A stretch of DNA of 64,000 nucleotides, taken from positions 1,990,356 through 2,054,355 of the forward strand of contig NZ_KE124774.1 of assembly GCF_000188155.2 (NCBI RefSeq), read 5' to 3'. A program made the translations under genes and the position numbers. The notes beneath the pieces were generated by a model that was given only the letters and a program-made list of their open reading frames with translations, was not told the DNA's origin and did not search any database. Shown piece by piece: positions 22,575-59,679 of the stretch (position 1 is its first letter; each line of letters opens with the position of its first letter). Origin of the DNA: Methylocystis sp. ATCC 49242 (GTDB lineage: Bacteria > Pseudomonadota > Alphaproteobacteria > Rhizobiales > Beijerinckiaceae).

Positions 22575-22614
22575 TTGCCCAATTTAGGTGAAACCTCATC
22601 CACAAGGAGATGAC

Positions 22615-22962
22615 ATGGTGAAGCATGTGAATTTACTCGTTGCCGCCGCTGTGGCGGTCGGCGCCCTGTCCATGACCGCGACGAACGCCTCGGCCATGCC
22701 GGCGGCGCCGAAAGACGCTGTCGCGCAATCAGGCGAAGCCGCGGGTCTGGAACAGGCGCATGCGGTGTGGGTCTGTCGTTACGGCCGTTGCTTCTGGACG
22801 CATGGTGGTCACCATCACAGCGGCCATGGATGGGGCGGACACGGACACTGGGGCGGTCACCACGGCTGGGGCTGGGGCGGCCACCACGGCGGTCACTGGG
22901 GCCATCATGGTCATCATGGACATCATCACCGTGGCCACCACCACGGCGGCCACCGCCGGTGA
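22615..22962 (+). CDS. Exported Gly/His/Trp-rich protein
   Basis: A 115-residue protein. A signal peptide (to about residue 27, ASA-M) is followed by a short linker, a VWVCRYGRCFW segment with two cysteines, and then about 55 residues made almost only of Gly, His and Trp (GGHHHSGHGWGGHGHWGG type repeats). AAGGAGATGAC precedes the ATG. The His-rich tail may bind Zn, Ni or Cu, but this is inferred from composition only. It is likely co-expressed with the YARHG gene 40 bases upstream. Confidence 0.65.
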   Translation: MVKHVNLLVAAAVAVGALSMTATNASAMPAAPKDAVAQSGEAAGLEQAHAVWVCRYGRCFWTHGGHHHSGHGWGGHGHWGGHHGWGWGGHHGGHWGHHGHHGHHHRGHHHGGHRR

Positions 22963-43242: not shown

Positions 43243-44043
43243 TCAGTCCTCCTGTCGAGGGCGGGCGGAAATCACCATCCCGTCCTCGAACCAGCTGGCG
43301 AGAAACTGCGCGAGCCGCTCCGGCTCGATCTCGCCGGACTGCTGGAAAGCCGCCATCTGGCATATATCGCCGAAGGCGCGACCGGCCCGCGCCTCGCTCA
43401 ATGCGACAAATTCGTCTGGCTCCAGCCCACGGAAGGCGGATTCTTCATTGACGCGCCACACCGCGACGGCCTCGACGCCATCCGCTTCCGGCGCCTGCGC
43501 GCCTTCGTCGTCCGGCGACGGGTCATAGGCTTCGAGCGTGCCTGCGGCGAGCTCCAGAACGATGAGACTCGGATGGAAGCCGAAGACGAGGCGCGGCCAG
43601 TCTTCCGGCGCAAATTGAGCCAGCGCCTCGATCGTCAGCGGCTCGGCGTCGGCGGCGTCGAAGGCGTCCACCATCGCACGCTCGAACAGCGCCATCGAGA
43701 CGGCGCGCCGGTCGTCGCGCCAGCGCGGGCTTTCGCGCATGAAATCCGGCAGGCCGGTCGTGTACCAGCGCGCATTGCGGTTCCGCGGCGGAGTTGCGGC
43801 GATATAATCCTCGACGAGCGCGTCGAAGGCCTCATCGCCGAGGAGCGCGCGCAGGCCGGGGTGGTCTTCGCCGAGAAAATCCGCAAGCCGCGCGCGATAG
43901 CCATGCTGATAAACGCCGAGCAGCGTCTCGCGCTCCGCGCCGCGTTGCGAGGGGCGCAGCGCCGACAGCAGGGGCTTGTCGCCCTCCCCTGCCCCTTCCA
44001 GTATGCGGCCCTGGAACAGCGCCTGAAAGTCGGCGAGCTTCAT
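43243..44043 (-). CDS. DUF2063 RiPP partner protein (HvfC/BufC/MbnC-like)
   Basis: A 266-residue DUF2063 protein. The N-terminus has the LADFQALFQGRIL helix, LLGVYQHGYRARLADFLGEDHPGLRALLG and then a YIAATPPRNRN segment, all family marks. In characterised systems the DUF2063 protein binds the precursor and the DUF692 enzyme and is needed for peptide modification. Its start overlaps the DUF692 stop (ATGA), so the two are made together. It ends flush against fae. Confidence 0.88.
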   Translation of the reverse strand: MKLADFQALFQGRILEGAGEGDKPLLSALRPSQRGAERETLLGVYQHGYRARLADFLGEDHPGLRALLGDEAFDALVEDYIAATPPRNRNARWYTTGLPDFMRESPRWRDDRRAVSMALFERAMVDAFDAADAEPLTIEALAQFAPEDWPRLVFGFHPSLIVLELAAGTLEAYDPSPDDEGAQAPEADGVEAVAVWRVNEESAFRGLEPDEFVALSEARAGRAFGDICQMAAFQQSGEIEPERLAQFLASWFEDGMVISARPRQED

Positions 44044-44885
44044 GCGGCGTTCAGCGCGCCGTCGGCGGCGATGCGCGCGTCGATGTCGCGCATGTGCTGA
44101 AGCTCGTCGAGCAGTTCGGAGAAGGGCGGGAAATTGTCGTCGCGCTCGATCATCGCCGAAACATTTCCAAAGCGGCGGCGAGCATGTTCGTAGAGCGCCC
44201 AGACTTCCTCGCAGACGGGCTGATCATGCGTGTCCACGCGATGCGTCTCGTTGTTGGTGTGACCGGCCATATGAAACTGCACGACGCGCTCGACAGGGAT
44301 GGCGTCGATAAAGGGGATCGGATCAAAGCCGTGATTGAAGCTCGACACGAAGACATTGTTGACGTCGAGCAGCAACAGGCAATCGGCCCGCTCCGCCATC
44401 TCGCGAACGAAATCTTGCTCGCTCATCTCGGAGGCGACGAAAGAGACGTAGGTCGAGGCGTTTTCGACGACGAGTTGACGTCCGAGGAAATCCTGAACGC
44501 GCCGGATGCGATCGACGATATGGTCGAGCGACTCGCGCGTGTAGGGGATGGGCAGGAGGTCGTGCAGCGTCACGCCATGCACGCCCGTCCAGGCGACGTG
44601 GTCGGAGATCCAGGCCGGCTCAACCCGCTCGGCGAGCGCCTTCAGCTGCTTGAGATAGTCGAAATCGAGCGGGTCGCAGGAGGCCAGCGACATCGACACG
44701 CCGTGCATGACGATCGGATAGTTGGCGCGCACGCGGTCCAGCATGGCGAGCGGCCGACCGCCCGCGAGCATGTAATTTTCGGAGATGATTTCAAACCAGT
44801 CGACCGGCGGATTGGTCGAGAGAATCTCATCGTAATAGACGGGCCGCAGGCCGAGGCCGTATCCGAGCGGCGCGGGCTTATTCAT
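44040..44885 (-). CDS. DUF692 multinuclear non-heme iron oxidase (MNIO, HvfB/BufB-like)
   Basis: A 281-residue TIM-barrel protein of the MNIO family (MbnB, TglH, HvfB/BufB), which oxidises Cys or other residues in precursor peptides using two or three irons. Conserved metal-site residues are visible: His61 (VMHGVSMSL), Asp95-His96, Glu141 (VVENAS), Asp174/Asn176 (LDVNNV), His185 (NHGFDP), His205 and His209 (FHMAGH), and Glu247 (IERDD). It starts 92 bases after the Cys-rich precursor stop, with a hairpin between. Confidence 0.92.
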   Translation of the reverse strand: MNKPAPLGYGLGLRPVYYDEILSTNPPVDWFEIISENYMLAGGRPLAMLDRVRANYPIVMHGVSMSLASCDPLDFDYLKQLKALAERVEPAWISDHVAWTGVHGVTLHDLLPIPYTRESLDHIVDRIRRVQDFLGRQLVVENASTYVSFVASEMSEQDFVREMAERADCLLLLDVNNVFVSSFNHGFDPIPFIDAIPVERVVQFHMAGHTNNETHRVDTHDQPVCEEVWALYEHARRRFGNVSAMIERDDNFPPFSELLDELQHMRDIDARIAADGALNAA

Positions 44886-44945
44886 CGCGCATATCTCTTC
44901 TCAAGGCCGCGCTTCAGCTCGGCGGGACATAATCAAAGACTGGGA

Positions 44946-44961
44946 CGGCCGCGAGCGGCCG
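44946..44961 (-). promoter_or_regulatory. GC stem-loop between precursor and DUF692 genes
   Basis: CGGCCGC-GA-GCGGCCG, a 7-bp perfect inverted repeat without a T-run, about 16 bases after the precursor stop and 60 before DUF692. Such hairpins in RiPP operons can stabilise or partly stop the transcript, giving more precursor than enzyme. Function inferred. Confidence 0.45.
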
Positions 44962-44977
44962 CCCCAAATTACGCAAC

Positions 44978-45244
44978 TTACTTGCTCTTGCAATGGCTCT
45001 TGTGATGGCAGCCGGCCTTCGTGTGATGACAGCCGTGCTTGTGATGGCAATTGCCCTTGTGATGGCTCATGTGATGCTTGCACACGCCGGTCTTCGTCAT
45101 GCACTTCATCTTGCCGCCGCACTGGCCCTTGGCCATGTTGCAGGTGTGGCCCTTGGCGTATGCCGGCGTGACGGCGGCTCCGCTCAGCGCGAGCGCGACT
45201 GCGGCCGCGGCCAGAGCCGCGCCTGAAACGACTTTCGTCTTCAT
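44978..45244 (-). CDS. Cys/His-rich exported peptide, probable MNIO RiPP precursor
   Basis: An 88-residue peptide. The signal sequence ends TPAYAKG near residue 32. The core has eight cysteines: CNMAKGQCGGKMKC, GVCKHH, then GNCHHKHGCHH and AGCHHKSHCKSK, with eleven histidines concentrated in the C-terminal 30 residues. AGGAG lies eight bases before the ATG. Position just upstream of DUF692 and DUF2063 is that of bufferin/HvfA precursors, but the core differs from DUF2282. Cys modification and Cu/Zn binding are inferred. Confidence 0.78.
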   Translation of the reverse strand: MKTKVVSGAALAAAAVALALSGAAVTPAYAKGHTCNMAKGQCGGKMKCMTKTGVCKHHMSHHKGNCHHKHGCHHTKAGCHHKSHCKSK

Positions 45245-45318
45245 ATGGTTCTCCTCAGTAAAGCCCCCGACGGGAGCGAAAGGTCGTGCAAACCGGACGC
45301 CGCTGGCGACGCGGATGA

Positions 45319-45609
45319 CTATCGGTTCATCGGCGCCGCGGAGGGAGCGGCGCTCGCCGGCGCCGCGCCTGAAGCCGGAGCGCCGGGGGCGGCGTTGGCG
45401 GGCGCGGCCTCGTTGGTCGCCGGAGCAGCGGCTCCCTCGGCCTTGCCCTTCGCCGGGCACCCGGCTTTCGCGCTGCAGGCCATTTTCTCGGACGAGGCCG
45501 CGCCGCGATGATGCTTCTTGCCTTTGGCGGCGGCCGGAGCTGCGCCAGCGAGCGCGAGAGCCATGGCGGCAGCAGCGATGGCGGCTCCCTGGAAGGTCTT
45601 TGTCTTCAT
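45319..45609 (-). CDS. Second exported peptide of the MNIO locus
   Basis: A 96-residue peptide. Its signal sequence (MKTKTFQGAAIAAAAMALAL) is nearly the same as that of the next peptide (MKTKVVSGAALAAAAVALAL), pointing to duplication. The mature part begins KGKKHHRGA and has one Cys pair, CSAKAGC, followed by a 45-residue Ala/Pro-rich tail. AGGAG precedes the ATG. It is first in the operon, 74 bases upstream of the Cys/His-rich peptide. It may be a second substrate or a chaperone-like partner; not resolved. Confidence 0.7.
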   Translation of the reverse strand: MKTKTFQGAAIAAAAMALALAGAAPAAAKGKKHHRGAASSEKMACSAKAGCPAKGKAEGAAAPATNEAAPANAAPGAPASGAAPASAAPSAAPMNR

Positions 45610-46055
45610 GAACAAAACTCCTGAAAAAGAGCGCGGCGCTTCGACGTCGCGCGAAGCAAAGACCACGCCACAATGGTCAAGCTTACCATCCGATCGCCAT
45701 TCCGCCAGCGCGTTTTCGGTCAGACCCCCAACAATCAAGGACATGGATAACGCCGACCGTGATTCTCCACAGCGTCAGATTGCTGCAACGCAGCGAATTT
45801 GGCAATGCGCCGCACCATCGAAACCCGGGCGGCTAGGCTTGCCGGGACACCGCCCCGCTGTTAGATAGCAGCGCATCGTCGGACGAGTCTCGTCCGGCGT
45901 AAACTGGTGTTCGATCGTCGGGCCGCGCCGGCCAGTTCAGTCATGAACCTTTCGTCTTTCGCGCGCACGCGCAGGGACCTCCGACTATCGAAAGCCGATC
46001 CGTAACGCCAACCCATAGCCGGCGCCCGCCCGCAAAGGGCTCCTCAGGAGAAACA
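45610..46055. other. Divergent intergenic region, MNIO RiPP locus / rpsA
   Basis: 446 bases without a supported gene. It should hold the promoter of the RiPP operon (minus) and of rpsA (plus). On the minus strand TTGACC lies at about 45680 but has no good -10. A short inverted repeat CGCTG-N8-CAGCG sits at 45856-45873. No ECF consensus could be assigned. CTCAGGAGAAACA before 46056 is the rpsA ribosome site. Confidence 0.4.
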
Positions 46056-47801
46056 ATGTCATCCGCAACGACTCAGCGCGCCCCCACGCGCGAAGATTTT
46101 GCCGCCCTGCTCGACGAAAGCTACGGCAATAACGAGGCTTTCGAAGGGTCCGTCATCAAGGGCCGCGTCGTCGCCATCGAGAAGGACGTCGCCGTCATCG
46201 ACATCGGTCTGAAGACCGAGGGCCGCGTCGCCATCAAGGAATTCACCGGCTACGGCCGCGATCCCGCTCCGAATGTCGGCGACGAGGTCGAGGTCTATCT
46301 CGAGCGCGTCGAGAACGCGCTGGGCGAAGCCGTCATCTCGCGCGACAAGGCGCGCCGCGAGGAGAGCTGGGTCAAGCTCGAAAAGGCGTTCGAGACCAAT
46401 GAGAAGGTCGACGGCGTCATCTTCAACCAGGTCAAGGGCGGCTTCACCGTCGACCTCGACGGCGCCGTGGCCTTCCTGCCGCGCTCGCAGGTGGACATCC
46501 GCCCGATCCGCGACGTCGCGCCGTTGATGAACGTGCCGCAGCCGTTCCACATTCTCAAGATGGACCGCCGCCGCGGCAACATCGTCGTCTCCCGCCGCAC
46601 TGTGCTGGAGGAGAGCCGCGCCGAGCAGCGTCACGAGATCGTGGCGAACCTCGAAGAAGGTCAGGTGATCGACGGCGTCGTGAAGAACATCACGGACTAC
46701 GGCGCCTTCGTGGATCTGGGCGGCATCGACGGCCTGCTGCATGTCACCGACATCGCCTGGCGCCGCGTCAATCATCCGTCCGAGGTGCTGACCATCGGTC
46801 AGACCGTCAAGGTGAAGATCATCAAGATCAATCACGAGACGCACCGCATCTCGCTCGGCATGAAGCAGCTGCTCGAGGATCCGTGGCAGGGCATCGAGGC
46901 CAAGTATCCGATCGGCGCGAAGTTCCATGGCCGCGTGACCAACATCACCGACTACGGCGCCTTCGTGGAGCTGGAGCCGGGCATCGAGGGCCTCGTCCAC
47001 GTCTCCGAGATGAGCTGGACCAAGAAGAACGTCCACCCCGGCAAGATCGTTTCGACGAGCCAGGAAGTCGACGTTCAGGTTCTCGAAGTCGATCCGGTCA
47101 AGCGCCGCATCTCGCTGGGCCTCAAGCAGACCCTGCAAAATCCGTGGGAGGCCTTCGCGGAGAAGCATCCGATCGGCTCGACCGTCTCCGGCGAAGTCAA
47201 GAACAAGACCGAGTTCGGCCTGTTCATCGGCCTCGACGGCGACGTGGACGGCATGGTCCATCTCTCCGATCTCGACTGGAACCGTCCGGGCGAGCAGGTG
47301 ATCGAGGAATACAAGAAGGGTGACGTGATCAACGCTCAGGTTCTCGACGTGGACGTCGAGAAGGAGCGCATCTCGCTCGGCGTGAAGCAGCTTGCGGGCG
47401 ATCCCTTCGCCTCGGTCGGCGGCGGGGAGGAAGGCGGCGACGTCCGCAAGGGCGCCGTGGTCACCTGCGAGGTGGTCGAGGTCAAGGACTCCGGCATCGA
47501 CGTCAAGATCGCCGGCACCGATCTCACGACCTTCATCAAGCGCAGCGAGCTCGCCCGCGACCGCGCCGACCAGCGCCCCGAGCGCTTCGCCGTCGGCGAG
47601 AAGGTCGACGCCCGCGTGACCCTGTTCGACCGCAAGGCGCGCAAGGTCGCCGTCTCCATCAAGGCGCTCGAGGTCGCCGAGGAGAAGGAGGCCATCGCGC
47701 AATACGGATCCGCCGATTCCGGCGCGTCGCTCGGCGACATCCTCGGCGCGGCGCTGAAGGCCCGCGAGGGCGAAGCAAAGAAGGGCAAGAAGGACGAGTA
47801 A
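46056..47801 (+). CDS. rpsA: 30S ribosomal protein S1
   Basis: mRNA-binding ribosomal protein with six S1 OB-fold repeats over 581 residues. The repeats are visible as NITDYGAFVDLGGIDGLLHVTD, NITDYGAFVELEPGIEGLVHVS and similar units (the third to fifth are the most regular). The C-terminus is Lys-rich. GGAGAAACA precedes the ATG. cmk, a frequent upstream neighbour, is absent. It has a terminator of its own. Confidence 0.98.
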   Translation: MSSATTQRAPTREDFAALLDESYGNNEAFEGSVIKGRVVAIEKDVAVIDIGLKTEGRVAIKEFTGYGRDPAPNVGDEVEVYLERVENALGEAVISRDKARREESWVKLEKAFETNEKVDGVIFNQVKGGFTVDLDGAVAFLPRSQVDIRPIRDVAPLMNVPQPFHILKMDRRRGNIVVSRRTVLEESRAEQRHEIVANLEEGQVIDGVVKNITDYGAFVDLGGIDGLLHVTDIAWRRVNHPSEVLTIGQTVKVKIIKINHETHRISLGMKQLLEDPWQGIEAKYPIGAKFHGRVTNITDYGAFVELEPGIEGLVHVSEMSWTKKNVHPGKIVSTSQEVDVQVLEVDPVKRRISLGLKQTLQNPWEAFAEKHPIGSTVSGEVKNKTEFGLFIGLDGDVDGMVHLSDLDWNRPGEQVIEEYKKGDVINAQVLDVDVEKERISLGVKQLAGDPFASVGGGEEGGDVRKGAVVTCEVVEVKDSGIDVKIAGTDLTTFIKRSELARDRADQRPERFAVGEKVDARVTLFDRKARKVAVSIKALEVAEEKEAIAQYGSADSGASLGDILGAALKAREGEAKKGKKDE

Positions 47802-50551: not shown

Positions 50552-52135
50552 CTAAGCCCCTACAAGCGTGTACGCTTTAGCATGCAATAATTCAGCGCGA
50601 CGACGAAGAAACTCATCGTAAGAACCCGAATCTAAGGCAGCAATCGAGTCTTTGTCGATAAACTGTGAGATCAGAACGTCTACACGCCCCTCTTCTCCAA
50701 GCTTTAGAATGTGGCTTCGCCAATCCACTGGTCCGGGATGATCCAAGTCCGCCAAACTTCTGAGTAACACATTAGGGAAAATCCTCGGCGAGGGCCCCAC
50801 GTCCAGACCCGATTCCTTCAATTCTTTGCCGGTTAGAATGCTCTCAAAGGCCCTCAAATCAGAGGTAGCCATGAACTCCGATGAGTTTATTTTTTCGCCA
50901 GTCATAAGGCTTTTAGCTTCGTGAATCGCAAACATCGCGGCAAAAGCCCCCGAAAGAGCCTTACCACGTATCAGGCGACGCTCGAAAAAGTCGTCCTTGG
51001 ACAAACGCAAGCGTGTTTCAAGGCCACGAATCTGCCCGTTGATCAATGCACGCCAATCCGATACGGCACGAACTACGTAATGGTCGGGCTTACCTCGAAG
51101 GCTCTCGTTAAATCCTACTGCCCAGAACCAGCGTTTAATCTGATCCAACTCAATAGGTGATTTCGCCTCGCTCATCCCGATTGTCTTGAATAAAACTAAA
51201 AGCTGCCCTTCGTATGGAACAAACGCAATATTTTGAATGCCGAATCCCTGTCGAAGGAACTCTCGGACGGCGTTGAATTTATCCGGAAACGACAGAAACG
51301 CATCCCGCAATTCGCCCGGGCTTCGATTGCGAAGCGACAACAGACCTTCACCAGATGGCGACACCCCGAGGAGAAGACCGACACATTTAATGATCGTCTC
51401 ATCAGATAGTTCAAATCCGGTCACCTGTAGAGGCTCGCGGACTAGGTCCAGATAATGATTGAGATCGAACGACTGATTCCATGTTATCGCACGCATGAAA
51501 TCAATCGTATCAAGACGTGTTCCTGTCGAATTTGTTCGCTCGAAAATTCCAACGATCCGATCAATATCATTACCTTGAATTCTCACGACCGGAACCATGT
51601 AATCTTGAAACGCTGCTTGAGTGCGAAGCAGCTCGTCTAAGAGCGCATCGCCGTCGTTCATTCTCGCAAGACGTGCCTGATGCTCAAGTAATGATCGAGG
51701 CGAAATTAGTGCTGAGAGTGGAATTGCTGAATTAATCTCATCAGCTACGAGGTCACGTTGATGGATAAACCGACGCCCACGCAGATCATAATAAACATTA
51801 AAAGATTCGCACTGTCCCGCTTGGAAATGAAAAGTCCCGTACAACGTTGATAAACGCTGCATCCCATCCAGAATGTAATTCGTCGGGTAAGACTCTGGAA
51901 CATCAGGAAACGCTGTTAATTGGTGACTAGCAATCTCCATCATCTTTCGATCTACATACCAAAGAAGGATGCTTCCGATTGGAAAATGGTCACGAACACT
52001 ACTCAATAGGTCAATGATCTGATTATCCTTCCAGACAAATTCTCGTTGGAAGGCAGGAATGCGCAAGTCCCCCGCCCCGATCTGGCGGAACAGCGTGAAC
52101 AAATGCACGACCGCGGGTTGAGGAGCGCTAATCAT
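50552..52135 (-). CDS. DUF262 protein (GmrS-like domain, no HNH domain)
   Basis: A 527-residue protein. The N-terminal DUF262 (ParB/Srx-like NTPase) domain shows IPAFQREFVWKDNQIIDLLSS, PIGSILLW, LDGMQRLSTLYG and FERTNSTGTRLDTIDFM. The usual DGQQR box is DGMQR here. The C-terminal half has no DUF1524 His-Asn nuclease motif. DUF262 proteins are parts of type IV restriction and other defence systems. The ATG overlaps the stop of the RelA/SpoT-like gene (ATGA), which suggests one functional unit. Base composition is lower in GC than the core. Confidence 0.85.
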   Translation of the reverse strand: MISAPQPAVVHLFTLFRQIGAGDLRIPAFQREFVWKDNQIIDLLSSVRDHFPIGSILLWYVDRKMMEIASHQLTAFPDVPESYPTNYILDGMQRLSTLYGTFHFQAGQCESFNVYYDLRGRRFIHQRDLVADEINSAIPLSALISPRSLLEHQARLARMNDGDALLDELLRTQAAFQDYMVPVVRIQGNDIDRIVGIFERTNSTGTRLDTIDFMRAITWNQSFDLNHYLDLVREPLQVTGFELSDETIIKCVGLLLGVSPSGEGLLSLRNRSPGELRDAFLSFPDKFNAVREFLRQGFGIQNIAFVPYEGQLLVLFKTIGMSEAKSPIELDQIKRWFWAVGFNESLRGKPDHYVVRAVSDWRALINGQIRGLETRLRLSKDDFFERRLIRGKALSGAFAAMFAIHEAKSLMTGEKINSSEFMATSDLRAFESILTGKELKESGLDVGPSPRIFPNVLLRSLADLDHPGPVDWRSHILKLGEEGRVDVLISQFIDKDSIAALDSGSYDEFLRRRAELLHAKAYTLVGA

Positions 52136-53046
52136 GAGTCCGCCTCGCTCGGAGAATCTCGTCCTGCCATTGCTTCTGCATTCACAGTCGGCGCACTCCC
52201 AGAAATGGGCGCTGAAGCGGATTCCATCTCGGAAATAGCCATGTCCTTTCCAGGCATAAGATCGAGCACCTCATCACGAAAGGTCTGAATCACCCCCTCA
52301 AGCAAATGAAGGGTATGACCAAGATACGCTGACCTGAATAGCTGGGAACGTGGCTCCCATCGCCATTTCTGATCGGTGTGGTTTGAAGGCTGAGTGCTAC
52401 GCCGCCCTTCATACAACCCGTGAGTCAAACCGGTGATGAGCTCCGACAACTGAGTCGTTAATTGGAGCTCAAACCATATACATTTTTCTTCAACACCTTC
52501 ATTTACCATGATCTCAACCGGAATTCGGAAGTAAAAGTGCCATGCATAGTATCCTAAATCATTATTCATTGAATAGTATTTCGATTTAATACACCTTTCT
52601 TTACAGAAACTTGCAAGAGCACTAGCAACGAATTTTGGTCCATCCATGTATTTGCATACAAGTCTAGCTCGCAATAAATCATTCATGTTTTCATGCTCGT
52701 ACATGCTGCTATAATCGACAAATCCTTTATCGGGTCTATCTGGAAACCTACGATTGTTAATGCAGTTTATGCGATATACCTTGTTCAGAAGGCTTTGGTA
52801 TGGCTTCGTAAAAACAGACAAGTCGGACGGACTAACCGGGTAATATAAAAGGTGCGGCCTGCCGCCTGCATACTCGGCCGCTATCTCATTCAGGTAGCGT
52901 ATCAAATCATTCATAAACTCTCCGGTTTGAAGCTTCGACTGTGCGGACGCGATATTAAACTCATAGGTCTTGGCACCCGACATAGCCGGATTCGGAAATC
53001 CTAGCTGTGCACCATACCGCGCAAAATAAGCTTCTTCCGAGAGCAT
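52132..53046 (-). CDS. RelA/SpoT-like nucleotidyltransferase domain protein
   Basis: A 304-residue protein. Read by motif, it has a (p)ppGpp-synthetase-like core: KPYQSLLNKVYR (ATP-binding, RxKxxxSxxxK style) at 81-92, Asp123 in NDLLRARLVCKYMD (Mg2+ site), GYYAWH (G-loop style, 165-170), and WFELQLTTQLSELITGLTHGLYE with Glu193 of the ExQ motif. No HD hydrolase domain is present. This is the plan of small alarmone synthetases and toxic variants (ToxSAS, CapRel). The ATG at 53046 was preferred to a TTG at 53064. It is coupled to the DUF262 gene. Confidence 0.65.
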   Translation of the reverse strand: MLSEEAYFARYGAQLGFPNPAMSGAKTYEFNIASAQSKLQTGEFMNDLIRYLNEIAAEYAGGRPHLLYYPVSPSDLSVFTKPYQSLLNKVYRINCINNRRFPDRPDKGFVDYSSMYEHENMNDLLRARLVCKYMDGPKFVASALASFCKERCIKSKYYSMNNDLGYYAWHFYFRIPVEIMVNEGVEEKCIWFELQLTTQLSELITGLTHGLYEGRRSTQPSNHTDQKWRWEPRSQLFRSAYLGHTLHLLEGVIQTFRDEVLDLMPGKDMAISEMESASAPISGSAPTVNAEAMAGRDSPSEADS

Positions 53047-53050
53047 TGAA

Positions 53051-53254
53051 TCACCCGCGATCAATCAGCATTCTTCTCGTCTGATCATTCTCGTCAAGAA
53101 TCATGAGCCTGTGCGCACAAATCGAGCACAGCCGTCTGCTGGAGGGCTCAGCACCGCGCAACATCACAAAAATCATATTCTGTGATGCTGACTTGTAACC
53201 CACTGAAATCATTGGATTCACTTCGGCAATCTCTTCGGTTGCTCTCCTGAACAT
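53051..53254 (-). CDS. Possible small CxxC protein ahead of the RelA/SpoT-like gene
   Basis: 67 codons, from ATG 53254 to TGA 53051, ending four bases before the RelA/SpoT-like ATG. The residues RRLCSICAHRLMILDEND contain one CxxC and read like real coding sequence. No ribosome site is clear, and no family is recognised. It could be the first gene of the operon (for example an antitoxin) or the remnant of one. Confidence 0.35.
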   Translation of the reverse strand: MFRRATEEIAEVNPMISVGYKSASQNMIFVMLRGAEPSSRRLCSICAHRLMILDENDQTRRMLIDRG

Positions 53255-53303
53255 CAGAAAACATGCTTGTTCCGAGCAAATTGTTAGCCAAGAGGAACAA
53301 GCA

Positions 53304-53519
53304 ATGAAACAGGCTCCCGTCCTCACCGAGCGAGATATGAAGCGGGTGCTACAGCACGTAGCCCGAGCACGCTTCCCTGCCCGCAACCGTTGCTTGCTGA
53401 TGCTGAGCTGGCTCGCGGGCATGCGTGTGGCAGAAATAGCCGCGCTGAAGCTAAACGACGTCCTCGCGCCTGACAAGACCATCCGAGCCGAAATCCAACT
53501 CTCCCCTGAACAGACCAAG
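53304..53519 (+). pseudogene. N-terminal fragment of a tyrosine recombinase
   Basis: Codons for MKQAPVLTERDMKRVLQHVA through RNRCLLMLSWLAGMRVAEIAAL and KLNDVL match the N-terminal part of a phage-type integrase catalytic domain; RVAEIAALKLNDV holds the first catalytic Arg. The frame is cut at about 53519 by the left end of the IS21-family element, and the missing C-terminal part is not found after the right end. GAGGAACAAGCA precedes the ATG. Confidence 0.75.
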
Positions 53520-53673
53520 TGTCAATGGCGGGGACAAAATGTGCATGAAGGCGGGGTAAAAGTGTACCGGTCTGGTTTCGAGAAAAGGGCCGCACGGCCC
53601 TTGTAGTTTAGTTGACGCGGGCGTTGAGGCGCGCGGAGCGTAGCGCAGCGCGGTTCAACGCGCGCGACGGCGA

Positions 53674-54516
53674 TCAGTTCGTCGTGTCGGCGCCTCCTTT
53701 GTCGATTGCGGGCGCGTCGGGGAGATCGCGGTTTCGCCGTTGCGCTTTCTTTGCGGTCGAGAGCCGATAGCTCTCGCCGTTCATTTCCAGAATGTGGACA
53801 TGATGGGTGAGCCGGTCGAGCAATGCGCCGGTGAGACGCTCGGAGCCAAACACCGACGTCCATTCATCAAAGGGCAGATTGCTGGTCACCAGCGTCGCAC
53901 CGCGTTCATAGCGCTGGCTGAAGACCTCGAAGAGCAGCTCTGAGCCGACCGCCGTGAACGGCGCATAGCCCAGTTCGTCGACGATCAGCAGTTTGACGGT
54001 GTTGAGATGCTTTTGCAGCGCGCGCAGGCGGCGCTCGTCGCGCGCCTCCATCAGTTCGTGCACAAGAGCCGCGGCGGTCGTGAACGCGACGCTGAACCCC
54101 TTCTGGCAGGCGGCGAGCCCCAGGGCGAGCGCGACGTGGGTCTTCCCCGTTCCGCTTGGCCCAAGGGCGATGCAGTTCTGTCGCTTCTCGATCCATTCGC
54201 ACCGCGCCAGCTCCAGCACGAGCGGCTTGTTGAGTGAAGGCTGGGCGGTAAAGTCAAATGTGTCGAGGCTTTTGACCTGCGTAAAGCGCGCCAGCCGGAT
54301 GCGGCGCTCGACATTGCGCCGCTCGCGATCAATGCGCTCCAGTTCGCACAGGCGTAGCAGATAGCGCGGGTAATCGGCGCGGTCCTGCGCCGACTCCAGC
54401 GCCACCTTCTCATATTCGCGCGCGAAGGTGGGAAGCTTCAGCGCCTTGAGATGATTACCCAGCAGCACCTGCGGCGCGACGATCGTCTGCGAACCCGTCT
54501 CATGCGAGGTGGTCAT
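53674..54516 (-). CDS. istB: IS21 transposition helper ATPase IstB
   Basis: A 280-residue AAA+ ATPase that assists the IstA transposase. It has Walker A ALGPSGTGKTHVALALG near residue 118, Walker B LLIVDELGYAP near residue 175, and SNLPFDEWTSVFGSERLTGALLDRL-like sensor sequence. Complete. The start overlaps the istA stop. Confidence 0.95.
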   Translation of the reverse strand: MTTSHETGSQTIVAPQVLLGNHLKALKLPTFAREYEKVALESAQDRADYPRYLLRLCELERIDRERRNVERRIRLARFTQVKSLDTFDFTAQPSLNKPLVLELARCEWIEKRQNCIALGPSGTGKTHVALALGLAACQKGFSVAFTTAAALVHELMEARDERRLRALQKHLNTVKLLIVDELGYAPFTAVGSELLFEVFSQRYERGATLVTSNLPFDEWTSVFGSERLTGALLDRLTHHVHILEMNGESYRLSTAKKAQRRNRDLPDAPAIDKGGADTTN

Positions 54517-56054
54517 GCCGGACCTCCCGCGGTCGTCTCCATGACGCCCGCGATGACGCTCGCGCCGGCGACGAGCCCGAGATAGGCGCGCGGATCCGTC
54601 GCGCCGACCGTAGCCGCCGGCAGGTAGGGGTAGAATGTCAGATCGAGCCGCGCGGGCCGGTTCTCCAGCCTGGCCAGCAGCAGCATCTTCACTGCGTCAA
54701 AGCTGATCGCGCCAAGACGCAGCGCCTCCGCGACCGCCTGTTCGACCTGATGCTGATGAAAGTCCTCCATCAGCCGCAGCACCTGGATGAACTCGCGGCG
54801 CCCGCTATTCCCCATGCGCGCCTCCATCAGCCGCCGCAGACGATGCACGCAGTCGGCAAGCCGCCAGTCGTCGAGCGGCGCGGCCTGATCGAGCGCGCGG
54901 CTCTTGTGTTCGAGTAAAGCGAGATAATGCAGCGGGTTGTAGATGAACTCGGCCTTGCCGTAGCTGCGCGCATGCACGGCGATGGTCTCCCCGCCGCAGA
55001 CAATCTCGACCCGATCGACATAGCCCTTGGCCAGCGCCTCCCGATGGCCGAAGCGCATCGGGACCGAGTAATCGTTGTTGCGGTAGCGCACCAGCGCCAT
55101 CGACGACACGCGCGTCGCGACCTTGTGACAGGCGTCATAGGGAGCCGGCGGCGCCGGCAGGAATGCCGCCATATCCGCCTGCATGCGTTCGCCGATCGGC
55201 GTCGACTGGCCCGCGCAGGATCGCCCGCCGTCGTTTCGTGCAGGCGTCCAGGAACCTCGCGTTCAGCGCCTCGAAACTCTCCGCCACGGGCAGTGGCGTC
55301 ATGAAGTTGCGCCGGACATAGCCGACAAGCCCCCTCGACCTTGCCCTTGTCATTCCCCTTGCCGGGCCGGCCAAAAGCGATCAGCAAAAAGGTAATGGCT
55401 CTGGAGTTCCGCAAACATTTGCGAACGCAGACGCTCTCCACCCTTCACGATCCTGGCGACCGCGAGACGCGTATTGTCGTAAAGAATGGACTGGGGGACG
55501 CCGCCAAAGAAGGCGAAGGCCGCGACATGGCCGTCGCAGAAGGCTTCCGCCGTCTCCGCCGGATAGGCCTTGACGAAGCAGCCGTCCGAATGCGGCAGGT
55601 CCATGCAAAAATAATGAAAGCGGACCTTCCTGCCGGCGATATAGGCGTCCGCCTCGCCAAAATCCGCCTGCGCATTCCCCGGTCGATGGCTGAGTGGAAT
55701 AAACATCTCGCGCGACCGCAACTGCGCCTGCGCGACATATTCCCGGACGATCGTGTAACCGCCGGAAAACCCTTCTTCGTCCCGCAGCCGTTCGAATATC
55801 CGCTGTGCCGTATGACGCTGCTTGGCGTGAACAAGCCGATCATCCGCCAGGACCTTGTCGATCCAGGCCATATACGGCCCCAGCTTCTTCGAGATCGGCC
55901 GCTCCCGACGCCGATACCCCGGCGGAACCGAATATTGAAGCATCTTCGTGATCGTATTGCGGTGCACGCCGAAGCGCCTGGCCGCTTCCCGCCGGCTCAG
56001 CCCTTCCGCCATCACCGCGCGTCTCACCCGGGCATAGAGTTCCACTGTGAACAT
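54513..56054 (-). pseudogene. istA: IS21 transposase IstA, frame broken three times
   Basis: DDE transposase. The N-terminal helix-turn-helix (RREAARRFGVHRNTITKML), the first Asp (NAQADFGEADAY) and the second Asp (ILYDNTRLAV) are in one frame. Three single-base shifts follow: near 55373 (TTTT for TTT), near 55330 (GGGGG for GGGG) and near 55208 (GGCCAG for GGCAG). The third catalytic Glu (NDKGKVEG) lies between the first two. The frame is then open to the end. Either a dead copy or homopolymer sequence errors. Confidence 0.88.
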
Positions 56055-56215
56055 CCTTTCGGCCTCTCCATGCCAGTCGATGACATCGAGTTCGGCCTAT
56101 CAGGACCGGTACACTTTTGCGCCGCCGTCAAAGCAGCCCCCAAAGCCGGTTCAGTGGTACACTTTGCCGCCGCTGTTCATACTCCTCTCTGTTCGGTTGA
56201 GGGGAGGCAGGGACC

Positions 56216-56584
56216 ATGACTTCCGAAAACAAGCTCGATCCTGCCATCATGGCGCAGTTCACCGGCTCGGAGACATTCTACCGCTACGGGCTCGCTGGCG
56301 ACGTTCTCTTCACGGAGGGCGTCAAATATGTCGCGGACACAGCCGGGGCGTACTGGCTGCTCGATCTGATCTGCATCGCCAATGTCTATGAGCCCAAGGT
56401 CCGGGGTGAAGAATTTCAGCTGTGGACGCTCGGGGTGCGGGACAACGCCACGGGAATGGTGACCTGCGACGATGGGAACGGTCGCATCGTCTCCGAGCAG
56501 GCGCTGAACTTCACCGATTTTCCTAAGCCCGGGATAAAGCTGTATTTTTGCAACGGGACGATTATGCTGCCGACCGAGTACTGA
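56216..56584 (+). CDS. DUF6876 family protein
   Basis: A 122-residue soluble protein. The sequence FTGSETFYRYGLAGDVLFTEGVKYVADTAGAYWLLDLI is the mark of DUF6876, and the end IKLYFCNGTIMLPTEY is conserved too. The function is unknown; homologues are common in plasmids and integrative elements. GAGGGGAGGCAGGGACC gives a strong ribosome site. It lies just inside the right end of the IS21-family element. Confidence 0.8.
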   Translation: MTSENKLDPAIMAQFTGSETFYRYGLAGDVLFTEGVKYVADTAGAYWLLDLICIANVYEPKVRGEEFQLWTLGVRDNATGMVTCDDGNGRIVSEQALNFTDFPKPGIKLYFCNGTIMLPTEY

Positions 56585-57306
56585 CCTTTTCCCTCGCAAT
56601 CGCCGCCACCGATATCCGATGTCCTCGCTAGAAAAACCAGCTTGGGCGTGAGATATTCTTGGGTGGAAGCCATGGCCACAGCCATTTGTCCGCGATCGAG
56701 GGAATTCACCATTGCAGCCGTCAAAACTTTCTATCTCGGAGCTCTTTCAGCAACGCGAGCAGTACCTGATTCCACTCTTCCAACGTGGGTATGTTTGGAC
56801 ACTGACAAATCAGATTATGCCTCTTTGGGAAGATGTAGCGGACAGATTGAATGCACTGAAAGAGCATCGAGAAGATGCTCACAAAATTGGTAGCGCAGAG
56901 AAGTTGCGCCCTCTTCGCAAGCATTTTTTGGGAGCCATTGTCGTCGGAAGCCCCGCAACTTTCGACAGCAAGGCCGTTCCTACACGCGAAGTGATAGATG
57001 GTCAGCAACGGATCACGACACTGCAGATAATGCTTCTCGCTCTGCGTGATGCTATCGCGCCATTGGACGATCCCGCGATTGGCGACGATGTGCTGAGCCT
57101 AACCTATAACAAGGGGAATTACGAAGCAAAGAAGGACCATTTTAAGGTATGGCCCACGAATGCTGGGCGCGATGTCATGCAGGTCCTGTCATCCGCTGGA
57201 AGCATGAAGGAGGTCTGCAACAGATACCCAGCAAAAGACAAAAGCCGACAAAAGGTTGAGCGGCCACTAATGGTTCAGGCCTATCTGTTTTTCTATTCCA
57301 TGCTAA

Positions 57307-58240
57307 GTGTCCGTCCTGAAAGATGTTGAATCGAATGAATCTGTTGTGATGGATGGGAGGCGGTCTGATTCGTAGGAGGCCGTCGATGTGGACGAAGGCA
57401 AACCGGGCGAAATACAATCGCGACAGGTTACGTTATCCGAGTGATGTGACGGACGAGGAGTGGGGGCATGTGGCGCCGCTTATTCCTCCGGCCAAGCGTG
57501 GCGGGCGCAAGCGTGAAGTGGACATGCGGGCGGTGTTCAACGCCATCATGTATGTGCTGAGCACGGGATGCCAATGGCGGTACATTCCCAAGGATTTTCC
57601 CCCGAAGAGCACAGTGTATCGTTATTTTTGCGATTGGGCCTGGTGCGGCGTTCTGGATCGCATGCACGACGCGCTCTACGTCATGTGTCGCGAACGAGCG
57701 GAACGAGAGGCGAGCCCCACCGCGGCGATCATCGATAGTCAGAGCGTGAAGAGCGCGGAAAAAGGGGGGCGCGCATTGATCCGCATGGCTATGACGCCGG
57801 CAAAAAGATCAAAGGCAAGAAACGCCACGTACTCGTCGATACGCAAGGTTTGTTGATGGGCGCCGTCGTTCACGGCGCCGACATTCAGGACCGAGACGGC
57901 GGCGTCTTGCTGCTTTCGACGTTGCATGGGCGGTTTCCCTTTCTTGAAAAGCTGTTGGCTGACAGCGCCTATCAGGGACCGATCTTCGCCGACGCAACGG
58001 GCAAAATCCTACCGTGTCTCAAAATCGAGATTATAAAACGATCCGATCAGGCGAAGGGCTTCGTGAAATTGCCCATGCGCTGGATCGTCGAAAGATCAAT
58101 CGCCTGGCTAAACCGCTGTAGAAGACTGGCCAAGGATTGGGAAAACCTCAATATCATAGCGCTCGTGTTCCTGCGTTTCGCGTCGATTCGGCTCATGCTA
58201 CGAAAGCTCTGCAATTGTTGACTAACTTCTGGGACGGACT
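57307..58240 (+). mobile_element. IS5-family element (IS427-like group)
   Basis: A 934-base element flanked by direct repeats CTAA (57303-57306 and 58241-58244), which fits the YTAR target duplication of this group. Its ends are GTGTCCGTCC on the left and, reverse-complemented, AGTCCGTCCC on the right. It carries one transposase in two overlapping frames. Confidence 0.92.
57386..58221 (+). CDS. IS5-family transposase made by a -1 frameshift
   Basis: The first frame (57386-57856) gives RYPSDVTDEEWGHVAPLIPP, GCQWRYIPKDFPPKSTVYRY and IIDSQSVKS (first Asp). The second frame gives ADSAYQGP (second Asp) and WIVERSIAWLNRCRRLAKDWE (Glu). The frames cross at AAAAAGGGGGG (57759-57769), a plausible slippery site. 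After a -1 shift the product reads GGARIDPHGYDAGKK, as in intact relatives. AGGAGG precedes the ATG. Confidence 0.85.
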
Positions 58241-59679
58241 CTAATGGCTTTGATGAGAGGTAAGAACCATGATGATTTGGCGCATGAGCAAGAGACGAAT
58301 GAAGGCAACACAATCGCGCATGCAGTGATACGCAGCATTGATAAGGACAACGATATCCTCATTCCATATATCAACCTTCCGGCTTCGATAGAGCCAATAT
58401 CCTTATTGCTAGACTCACTGCAAACCTGCTTCCAAATTATGCGGCTACAGCTGGATAACGAAGACGATCCGCAAATAATATTCGAAACACTCAATGCTCG
58501 CGGCGCACCTTTGCAGCCGAGCGATCTTATCCGAAATTTCCTATTTCTGACTGCGTCACGACAAAATGAAGACGTAGACGATCTCTATAAGAATTATTGG
58601 CAGGAATTTGACGAAAAGACGGAAATCGGCACCACAGTAAAAGGCCAAAAATTCTGGAAAAAGGAAGAGCGTCAAGGACGCCTGAAGAACTCTCGCCTAG
58701 ACCTGCTACTCTATCATTATGTCGGCCTACGCAAGCAGGAAGAGACAAAAGTTGCGTACGTGTTCGAGGAGTTCAAGAATTGGTGGGAGCTTGAAAGACG
58801 CGACACCGCACAGGAATTGCAAAAATTGACACGCATATCAGGACCCTTTGAAACACTCATTGCCCCGGGTCAATCGAGTCGATTTGAACTATTTTGTCGC
58901 CGAATGAAGCTGCTTGACACCACAACTCAGACGCCGCTCATATTCCACCTTATCGAACACAACGAAATTGATGGTCCAGATTTTTTGCAAGCAATAGACT
59001 ATCTAGAATCATATTTCGTGCGGCGATTTATTTGTGGACTCACGGCAAAAAGCTACAATCGAGTATTCCTCAATAGGTTGCTCGCGGAAATGGTAGCGGA
59101 AAGAAAATCCGATTCCGCTACGTTACGGAACCTGCTTCTCAGATTGGAAGGGGACAGCCAACGCTGGCCAGACGATGCAGAATTTAGATCAGCATGGAGT
59201 CACCGGCAGCTATATCAAGGACGAAACACACGCAAGGTCCGCGCTGTATTGGAAGCGCTGGAATTCGCGCAGCGAGGCTCCAAGCAAGAATTCACCCCGA
59301 CGCTTGATACCCTTTCTGTAGAGCACGTTCTACCACAGAGCTGGAAGCCAGAGGACTGGCCGCTCGTGGACGATTCATCGGAAGGTAAGGAAAAGCGTGT
59401 GCGTCTTTTGCACAGCATCGGAAACCTGACTCTCGTTACTCCATCGTTCAATTCAGCATTGAGTAACGAGCCGTTCAGGGTAAAACGTCCAGAATTAGCG
59501 AAAAACAGCAGCCTGATGCTAAACGCATATTTTCAGAGTTTCGCAGATAGCGACGCTTGGAATGAGCTAACGATCGTTGATCGGGCTGATAAGTTGTTCG
59601 GCTACGCTACAGCCCTGTGGCCTCGGCCATCGCCTTAGTGTCTAATGCTGGCATTAACCAGTTACCAAGAACACCACCT

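Follow-up and report, generated by a model that had tools for sequence, protein, structure and literature searches.

The window analysed here is the whole stretch of 64,000 nucleotides from Methylocystis sp. ATCC 49242 (contig NZ_KE124774.1), and the system in question is an operon on its minus strand that encodes two small peptides (pep1 and pep2), an MNIO (DUF692) enzyme and a DUF2063 partner protein. An earlier note, made from the letters alone, had claimed this order of peptide, peptide, DUF692 oxidase and DUF2063 protein, with one Cys pair in the first exported peptide and with eight Cys and many His in the second. All four genes were confirmed, and the contents of Cys and His were as described:

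45319-45609, minus strand: pep1, open reading frame (ORF) of 96 amino acids with 2 Cys; predicted exported accessory precursor
44978-45244, minus strand: pep2, ORF of 88 amino acids with 8 Cys and 13 His; predicted exported precursor
44040-44885, minus strand: MNIO (DUF692) of the BufB2 lineage, 281 amino acids, ERDDN motif, matches to PF05114 and MNIO_BufB
43243-44043, minus strand: DUF2063 and RRE-type partner (PME-type 1, BufC-like), 266 amino acids, match to PF09836

The ATG of the DUF2063 gene overlaps the stop codon of the MNIO gene, and inspection by eye revealed AGGAG sites in front of the starts of pep1 and pep2. An MNIO with its iron ligands, an adjacent DUF2063/RRE-type partner and an upstream Cys-rich precursor are all present, which makes this an MNIO-PME1 operon for ribosomally synthesized and post-translationally modified peptides (RiPPs). 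The machinery is of a known bufferin kind and does not represent a new class; the novelty lies in the precursors.

The enzyme, its lineage and its partner

The MNIO matched the Pfam family PF05114 with 367.6 bits and the NCBIfam model MNIO_BufB (NF050167) with 376.4 bits, above the curated cut-off of 310. The scores with the HvfB model (279 bits, cut-off 360) and with the NCBIfam MbnB model (80.4 bits, cut-off 325) were below the respective cut-offs, the latter so far that methanobactin was ruled out. A DUF2282 bufferin was also ruled out, because neither pep1 nor pep2 matched DUF2282 in Pfam at an E value of 1, and on both points the earlier note was right.

For the comparison of enzymes, MNIO loci were collected from the family, where the BufB model matched 135 of 397 genomes (133 above the cut-off). 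In addition, pep2 matched 52 of 397 genomes, and several of its weaker matches, when read, were canonical BufA2. Locus sequences were collected for the best 30 matches of each search and for 80 named loci, and the upstream precursors were assigned by a script. After MNIOs shorter than 240 amino acids, identical MNIOs and the duplicate locus L032 had been left out, 127 non-identical MNIOs were labelled, 72 as Buf2, 31 as window type and 19 as Buf1, while 5 had no recognised precursor.

For VcMbnB, eight iron ligands have been published (PMC8888699; MbnB is also dealt with in PMC3621798), and in an MbnB alignment they map to H61, H96, E141, D174, N177, H205, D218 and E247 of the window MNIO. The metal site, described as intact in the earlier note, thus retains eight of eight ligands, and all eight positions were the same in each of the 122 MNIOs compared. 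The ERDDN motif contains the catalytic Asp249 and the selectivity residue Asp250. An Asp beside the catalytic Asp is the mark of Cys-Lys (BufA2) enzymes, while Phe is found in Lys-Cys (EGKCG) enzymes (PMC12668002). The counterpart of Asp250 was Asp in all 31 window-type MNIOs and in 71 of the 72 Buf2 MNIOs, but in 0 of the 19 Buf1 MNIOs. With Asp instead of Phe at the selectivity site and the HvfB model below its cut-off, an oxazolin system was ruled out. Ala98, which is situated near the iron site, was considered as a marker of the change in the precursor core and was rejected, because seven Buf2 MNIOs, including that of the Methylocystis genome G203, share it.

Two phylogenetic trees were calculated, both as quick searches without bootstrap. 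The first contained 72 of the 127 MNIOs (all 31 of the window type, 32 of 72 Buf2, 8 of 19 Buf1 and 1 of the 5 unlabelled). For the second, with 74 rows, the unlabelled row was removed and the canonical-Buf2 MNIOs of the genomes G057, G332 and G215 were added. In both trees Buf1 split off with a Shimodaira-Hasegawa-like approximate likelihood ratio (SH-aLRT) of 100. The window-type MNIOs formed a branch of 32 together with the canonical-Buf2 MNIO of G203 in the first tree (SH-aLRT 94), and a branch of 34 together with those of G203, G057 and G332 in the second (SH-aLRT 94). The branch of 34 divides into nine Methylosinus-type rows (96) and a group of 25 rows (88), which consists of G203, G057, G332 and 22 Methylocystis window-type rows (100). 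The window-type MNIOs are thus nested within Buf2, and canonical Buf2 enzymes reappear within the window-type range.

The MNIO gene is under purifying selection, with ratios of nonsynonymous to synonymous substitution rates (dN/dS) of 0.06-0.14 for 10 pairs; some dS values exceeded 1 and are rough. The partner matched PF09836 with 67.6 bits (cut-off 27.2), and a profile of 47 relatives matched the structure PDB 3dee over the C-terminal part with an E value of 1.1e-4. Its AlphaFold2 model had a mean predicted local distance difference test (pLDDT) score of 92.3.

The precursors and their kinship with BufA2

The pep2 peptide has a conserved four-Cys core, CxMxKGxCGGKxKCMTKxGVCKH, which is followed by a tail in which three Cys-His-His units precede a terminal HC. 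The earlier note had called this His-pair/Cys core unusual and had asked for a search of precursor families. Both peptides indeed lie outside the curated families searched, as neither had an NCBIfam match at an E value of 1 or a Pfam match above the cut-off, and pep2 had none at an NCBIfam E value of 10 (in the searches preceding the latter, the pep2 query comprised 87 amino acids, without the first Met). Three findings show that pep2 is not a chance ORF. First, its stretch ranks second in Cys plus His among 53,867 windows of 54 residues from the open frames of the 64 kb. Second, precursors of the pep2 type are also present upstream of the orthologous MNIOs of Methylocystis and Methylosinus. 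Third, its dN/dS of 0.05-0.37 (15 pairs; the caveat on some dS values applies here, too) indicates purifying selection. The richest Cys plus His stretch of the window belongs to an ORF of 124 amino acids at 22588-22962 on the plus strand, whose N-terminus is hydrophobic and whose end is rich in Gly and His, with 23 His in 54 residues; it is possibly another exported metal-binding protein.

Thirty aligned relatives of pep2 share the signal peptide and the four-Cys core, while their tails contain two to five Cys. The alignment did not include L156, L040, two rows of a second form (L148:3772 and L144:3089) and the proteins P0021, P0025, P0027 and P0028, of which P0027 has a tail with one Cys. Among 41 distinct pep2-type cores, 22 contained 6 Cys and 10 contained 9 Cys, and the mean number of His was 7.6 (3-13), compared with 0.9 in 76 canonical Buf2 cores. 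A Lys follows 65% of the 456 Buf2 Cys, but only 20% of the 288 Cys of the pep2 set. The Cys spacings are not independent evidence, because the sets were picked by Cys-spacing patterns.

In many loci of the same genus pep2 is replaced by the second form, HCGGKxxCRGMAKCHHKAQCHHHKGHCNMK..., which is related to the first (profile probability 97.5); the genomes G302 and G282 contain both forms in tandem. The pep1 peptide is a shorter member of the family. It has one Cys pair with the spacing C-x5-C (...CSAKAGCPAK...) and an Ala/Pro-rich tail. In an alignment of 11 rows both Cys were invariant, the consensus was EKHKCxGKNGCPAK, and nine rows had the C-x5-C spacing. Matches to pep1 were found in at least 14 of the 39 genomes of the genus, its own included, a search that missed the pep1-like gene of G203. 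In nine Methylosinus-type loci the script detected pep2 as the sole precursor candidate upstream of the MNIO, apart from a fragment of a dehydrogenase-like gene, recognised by eye, in some of these loci.

The signal peptides were assigned by reading and by a profile test, the profile being built from 67 BufA2 signal peptides of the loci L078-L141. The profile gave 32.2 bits for pep2, 17.7 bits for pep1 and 7.5 bits for the best unrelated ORF, and the top 30 of 1087 ORFs (taken from the first ATG, with 70 residues at most) were exclusively BufA2, pep2-type and pep1-type peptides. The signal peptides of pep2, pep1 and BufA2 are therefore similar, although the test was lenient because most of the 1087 ORFs do not encode real secreted proteins. 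With the BufA2 model NF050166, pep2 reached 13.5 bits in a genome scan, below the curated cut-off of 60, four pep2-type relatives reached 6.6-22.4 bits, and pep1 did not match. Conversely, a profile of the pep2 family also detected, in the whole host genome, pep1 with 28.5 bits and the canonical BufA2 of the host with 29.8 bits; its only other two matches in a sample of 397 genomes of the order were canonical BufA2.

A further link is provided by metagenomic intermediates between BufA2 and pep2. The database proteins P0057, P0065, P0056 and P0053 form a graded series and scored 40.5, 37.7, 35.9 and 20.2 bits, respectively, with the BufA2 model (cut-off 60). The core of P0057 matched the Buf2 core with 24.8 bits (none of 1000 Cys-fixed shuffles scored as high) and the pep2 core with 10.5 bits (5 of 1000 did). 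P0057 and its relatives, which are database peptides, combine Cys-Lys units with His residues that precede Cys, a halfway state between BufA2 and pep2. In addition, the motif CMT-x4-CK is common to pep2 and the canonical BufA2 of G203, G057 and G332. Taken together, these sequence comparisons suggest that pep2 probably descends from BufA2.

Locus, orphan BufA2 genes and expression signals

The neighbours of the operon are fae, pyrD and a gene for an rpsA-like S1 protein. Named carriers of pep2-type precursors were Methylocystis, Methylosinus and one Methylocystaceae bacterium, while for some carriers the name goes no further than order or class. In eight of eight named loci (L062-L069) rpsA adjoins the operon, and in five of them fae lies on the opposite side; at three Methylosinus-type loci (L070, L071 and L151) both rpsA and fae were not seen. 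In G057, which is of the same genus, the place between rpsA and fae corresponds to the pep1-pep2 place of the window and holds a canonical BufA2 gene (88.1 bits) together with an upstream pep1-like gene. Canonical BufA2 and a pep1-like gene are also present in G332 and in G203, where fae was seen and rpsA was not seen within the fetched stretch. This common locus, with canonical BufA2 and a pep1-like gene in relatives, indicates that the operon has long been present in the genus and that the precursor core is the part that differs. A plasmid search with the MNIO yielded 354 records, each less than 60% identical.

The host genome (G000) consists of 6 contigs and is 100% complete. Two of its genes belong to the AMO/PmoA family PF02461, which, together with its Methylocystis relatives, bears out the probable methanotroph of the earlier note. 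It has exactly one MNIO gene and, 1.5 Mb away from it, a canonical BufA2 gene (89.9 bits; contig C6, 512965-513186). Because the MNIO is the only one, it must be the window enzyme that modifies this orphan BufA2, if anything does. Bufferin precursors away from MNIO genes have already been reported (PMC12452194). BufA2 above the cut-off was found in 32 of the 39 genomes of the genus, and 30 of these 32 have at least one BufA2 gene that does not lie within the 1 kb preceding an MNIO (49 of 64 genes), a count in which some genes lie about 2 kb from an MNIO and contig ends may hide neighbours. A single MNIO match overall was seen only in the host, G057 and G332, while G287, G312 and G322 have another MNIO besides the BufB-type one. 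Many genomes of the genus contain a further MNIO class with 271-288 bits, and many relatives a weak class with 58-88 bits, which may be MbnB; none of either class was found in the genome of the window.

As a methanotroph without a second MNIO, the host lacks an MbnB of the MNIO family, and a secreted, methanobactin-like chalkophore encoded by the operon could take over the scavenging of copper. The predicted Sec-type signal peptide, the DUF2063 partner and the low MbnB score argue against such a product, as does the lack of a transporter among the four operon genes, and we consider it very improbable.

Among the orphans of the genus, G203 (Methylocystis bryophila, to judge from the name of P0065) contains a His-rich BufA2-like peptide, P0065, at locus L174 (C1:1294500-1301000), with HupE/UreJ-like, NicO and CopC genes within about 3 kb. 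These surroundings hint that His-rich BufA2-like peptides may serve non-copper metals, too.

Two features of the operon may be relevant for its expression:

44941-44966, minus strand: GC-rich hairpin between the pep2 stop and the MNIO start, from a folding prediction
45681-45709, minus strand: candidate pep1 promoter GCTGGC-N17-GTAAGC, tentative, from a comparison by eye

In all 16 folded spacers, which separate the MNIO from the precursor closest to it, a GC-rich stem was predicted. The z value was -2.55 in the window and ranged from -0.50 to -2.55 over 8 spacers, which is modest support, and no Rfam family was found in 44800-46100. On the basis of these predictions, the hairpin may terminate transcription partially or stabilise the mRNA and in this way keep the precursor mRNA above the enzyme mRNA. 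In some relatives GCTAGC-N17-xTAATC precedes pep1 at about the same position. Of 12 regions upstream of pep1, which include near-copies, 7 contain GCTAGC, compared with 15 times in 184,519 background bases, which include most of the tested regions. As a lead only, this upstream layout suggests a shared regulator. A shared MerR-type operator was rejected, because TTGACC is present at this place in the window alone (L038 has TTGACC elsewhere).

At a distance from the operon, the window contains two GmrSD-type restriction pieces within 50555-59635, an N-domain protein (50555-52135, minus strand) and a C-domain protein (58244-59635, plus strand), with an IS21 IstB gene (53677-54516, minus strand) between them.

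Proposed function and comparison with known systems

We propose that the system is a methanotroph-specific, His-rich offshoot of the Buf2/BufA2 operon that buffers periplasmic copper with thiooxazole and His ligands, and we assign a probability of about 0.65 to this reading. All characterised MNIO-PME1 cases install thiooxazoles, and their products generally bind copper (PMC12668002). By analogy with such relatives (PMC12668002, PMC12538549), the cytosolic DUF2063/RRE partner would bind the BufA2-type signal-peptide region, which would serve as a leader, and present the precursors to the MNIO, which would oxidise selected precursor Cys to 5-thiooxazoles. The modified peptides would then be exported by Sec, and mature pep2 would hold periplasmic copper via thiooxazole, thiol and paired-His ligands, with the His pairs as putative extra metal ligands. 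The pep1 peptide would be a companion substrate with one Cys pair, and the sole MNIO of the genome would modify the unlinked canonical BufA2 in trans, so that one enzyme probably serves three precursors (pep1, pep2 and the orphan BufA2).

Several results weigh against this proposal. The core of pep2 scored only 2.9 bits with a Buf2 hidden Markov model, which was equalled by 451 of 1000 Cys-fixed shuffles, and a profile-profile comparison of pep2-type with Buf2 mature cores was not significant (probability 1.5, E value 0.034). Consistent with this, no described bufferin was found to have a closely identical core, which the earlier note had considered as a counter-finding. In identity permutations the fraction of shuffles that were as good was 6.3% for the BufA2 of G203, 2.5% for G057 and 2.9% for G332, and 12.1%, 22.4% and 52.2% for the own orphan, Rhodoblastus and Bradyrhizobium, respectively. 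The signal-peptide profile missed at least three family peptides, the pep1 of L144 and of L145 and the pep2 of L153, which reached only 5.9 bits, less than the best unrelated ORF. A Lys, the Buf2 hallmark, follows only two of the eight Cys of pep2, and because Cys-Lys sites are few the preference of BufB2 may suit the pep2 core poorly. No copper genes were detected among the tested window neighbours of the operon, and no DoxX gene is adjacent to it, the single DoxX gene of the genome being 1.1 Mb off. In the second tree the canonical-Buf2 enzymes fall between the Methylosinus and Methylocystis window-type groups, so that a core change in place cannot have been single and permanent. Either the window type arose twice, or the ancestor held both precursors and later losses differed; tandem and orphan precursor genes suggest the latter.

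The weak similarity of the cores would be expected if the pep2 core were new and had acquired its BufA2 signal peptide by capture, and if this fusion then took the place of BufA2 in the operon or was added to it; enzyme and leader would still be Buf2, but the substrate would be a new class. The signal peptide alone accounts for much of the profile similarity, and as canonical BufA2 survives elsewhere in the genome, pep2 need not descend from it. The graded intermediates with 20.2-40.5 bits to BufA2, and especially P0057, which matches both cores, argue for descent instead, as does the shared CMT-x4-CK motif, albeit weakly in view of the 2.5-6.3% of shuffles that were as good. The second tree lowered our probability for the proposed BufA2 offshoot from 0.66 to 0.65 and slightly raised that of the captured signal peptide, which we regard as the less likely explanation, though one to be taken seriously. 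The claim of the earlier note that this may be a new class of copper-buffering peptide was too strong for the system, given the BufB of the Buf2 lineage (the note had overlooked the Buf2/BufA2 family), the BufA2-like signal peptide and the canonical BufA2 at the G057 locus. It stands in a narrower form, as a new variant of bufferin precursor.

The metal itself could also be a different one. The same machinery may yield a product that handles nickel, zinc or mercury, with the His pairs marking the change. The Cys-His-His units differ from the described copper thiooxazole peptides, the His-rich orphan of G203 has the HupE/UreJ-like, NicO and CopC genes nearby, and MerC-bufferin fusions have been reported (PMC12452194). 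On the other hand, the described bufferins respond to copper (PMC12452194, PMC12668002), the host relies on a copper enzyme, the tested neighbours in the window are fae, pyrD and rpsA, and CopC is also among the genes near the G203 orphan. We therefore consider a metal other than copper decidedly unlikely.

The small number of Cys-Lys sites and the canonical BufA2 still present in the genome would also be compatible with pep2 being an unmodified His/Cys peptide of the metallothionein type, with the MNIO acting on pep1 and the orphan BufA2 only. Yet pep2 occupies the bufA position directly upstream of bufB, carries a BufA2-like signal peptide, and is the sole candidate precursor assigned in the nine Methylosinus-type loci, apart from the dehydrogenase-like fragment in some, which makes an unmodified pep2 quite improbable.

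Bufferins are commonly regarded as peptides of the copper-stress response in which each family has its own unchanging core. If the proposed BufA2 offshoot is correct, the enzyme, partner, signal peptide and locus were kept while a His-rich core of variable length came in, and this in bacteria that live by a copper enzyme. The result is a natural experiment on the substrate range of BufB2 and on a possible contribution of His to metal binding. As the host combines a single MNIO with two linked precursors and an unlinked BufA2, modification in trans is directly testable. In addition, the system is a candidate for a second MNIO-type copper peptide of methanotrophs, besides methanobactin. A bolder extension is that in Methylocystis and Methylosinus a bufferin of the copper-stress kind has become a periplasmic copper reservoir of high capacity, with a new mixed set of thiooxazole and paired-His ligands, in which one MNIO serves three structurally different precursors and copper is buffered or supplied around methane monooxygenase in a host without a methanobactin maturase of the MNIO family. 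This extension is speculative and, as a whole, rather unlikely.

In the open literature we found no paper joining Methylocystis with MNIO, or bufferins with histidine-rich, and a search for Methylocystis with BufA2, captophorin or bufferin-type terms returned only the captophorin paper, in which Methylocystis is not named. Broader searches, judged by titles and the opening of the abstracts, yielded no paper on this peptide. The excerpts of a Methylosinus copper transcriptome (PMC12811070) contained no DUF, hypothetical protein, RiPP or bufferin terms. Such MNIOs are reported to be preceded by hundreds of small precursors (1-18 Cys) that have not been classified (PMC12452194), and the present ORFs may be among them without a family assignment.

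Methanobactin (MbnA/B/C) shares with the window operon a methanotroph host in which copper is relevant, the MNIO fold and the iron ligands; it differs in having MbnC in place of DUF2063, and the window precursor has a predicted signal peptide. The oxazolin/EGKCG captophorins (HvfA, fontiphorin, bulbicupramide) are likewise Cys-rich and made by an MNIO-PME1 pair, and a Lys-Gly-x-Cys-Gly is present in the pep2 core. However, their enzymes have Phe instead of Asp at the selectivity site, and pep2 has a His-rich tail and no EGKCG repeats. Type-1 bufferins (DUF2282, BufA1) resemble the window system in the kind of operon, Sec export and the DUF2063 partner, but their MNIOs are only 39.7-46.0% identical to that of the window (19 loci), the cores differ, and the window peptides lack DUF2282. 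The CxxxxC precursors (PMC12452194) are like pep1 in having a signal peptide and one short Cys pair, whereas the spacing of pep1 is C-x5-C in 9 of 11 rows. With the type-2 bufferin BufA2-BufB2-BufC2 (NF050166/NF050167; Buf_6/12Cys; Cys-Lys captophorins), the window operon has in common the MNIO lineage, the selectivity Asp, the signal peptide, the order of precursor, MNIO and DUF2063 gene, and the chromosomal locus in one genome of the genus. It differs in lacking an adjacent DoxX gene, in its extra 2-Cys precursor and in its core: in BufA2 a Lys comes after about four of the six Cys, whereas pep2 lacks this pattern and has 8 Cys, 13 His and the Cys-His-His tail.

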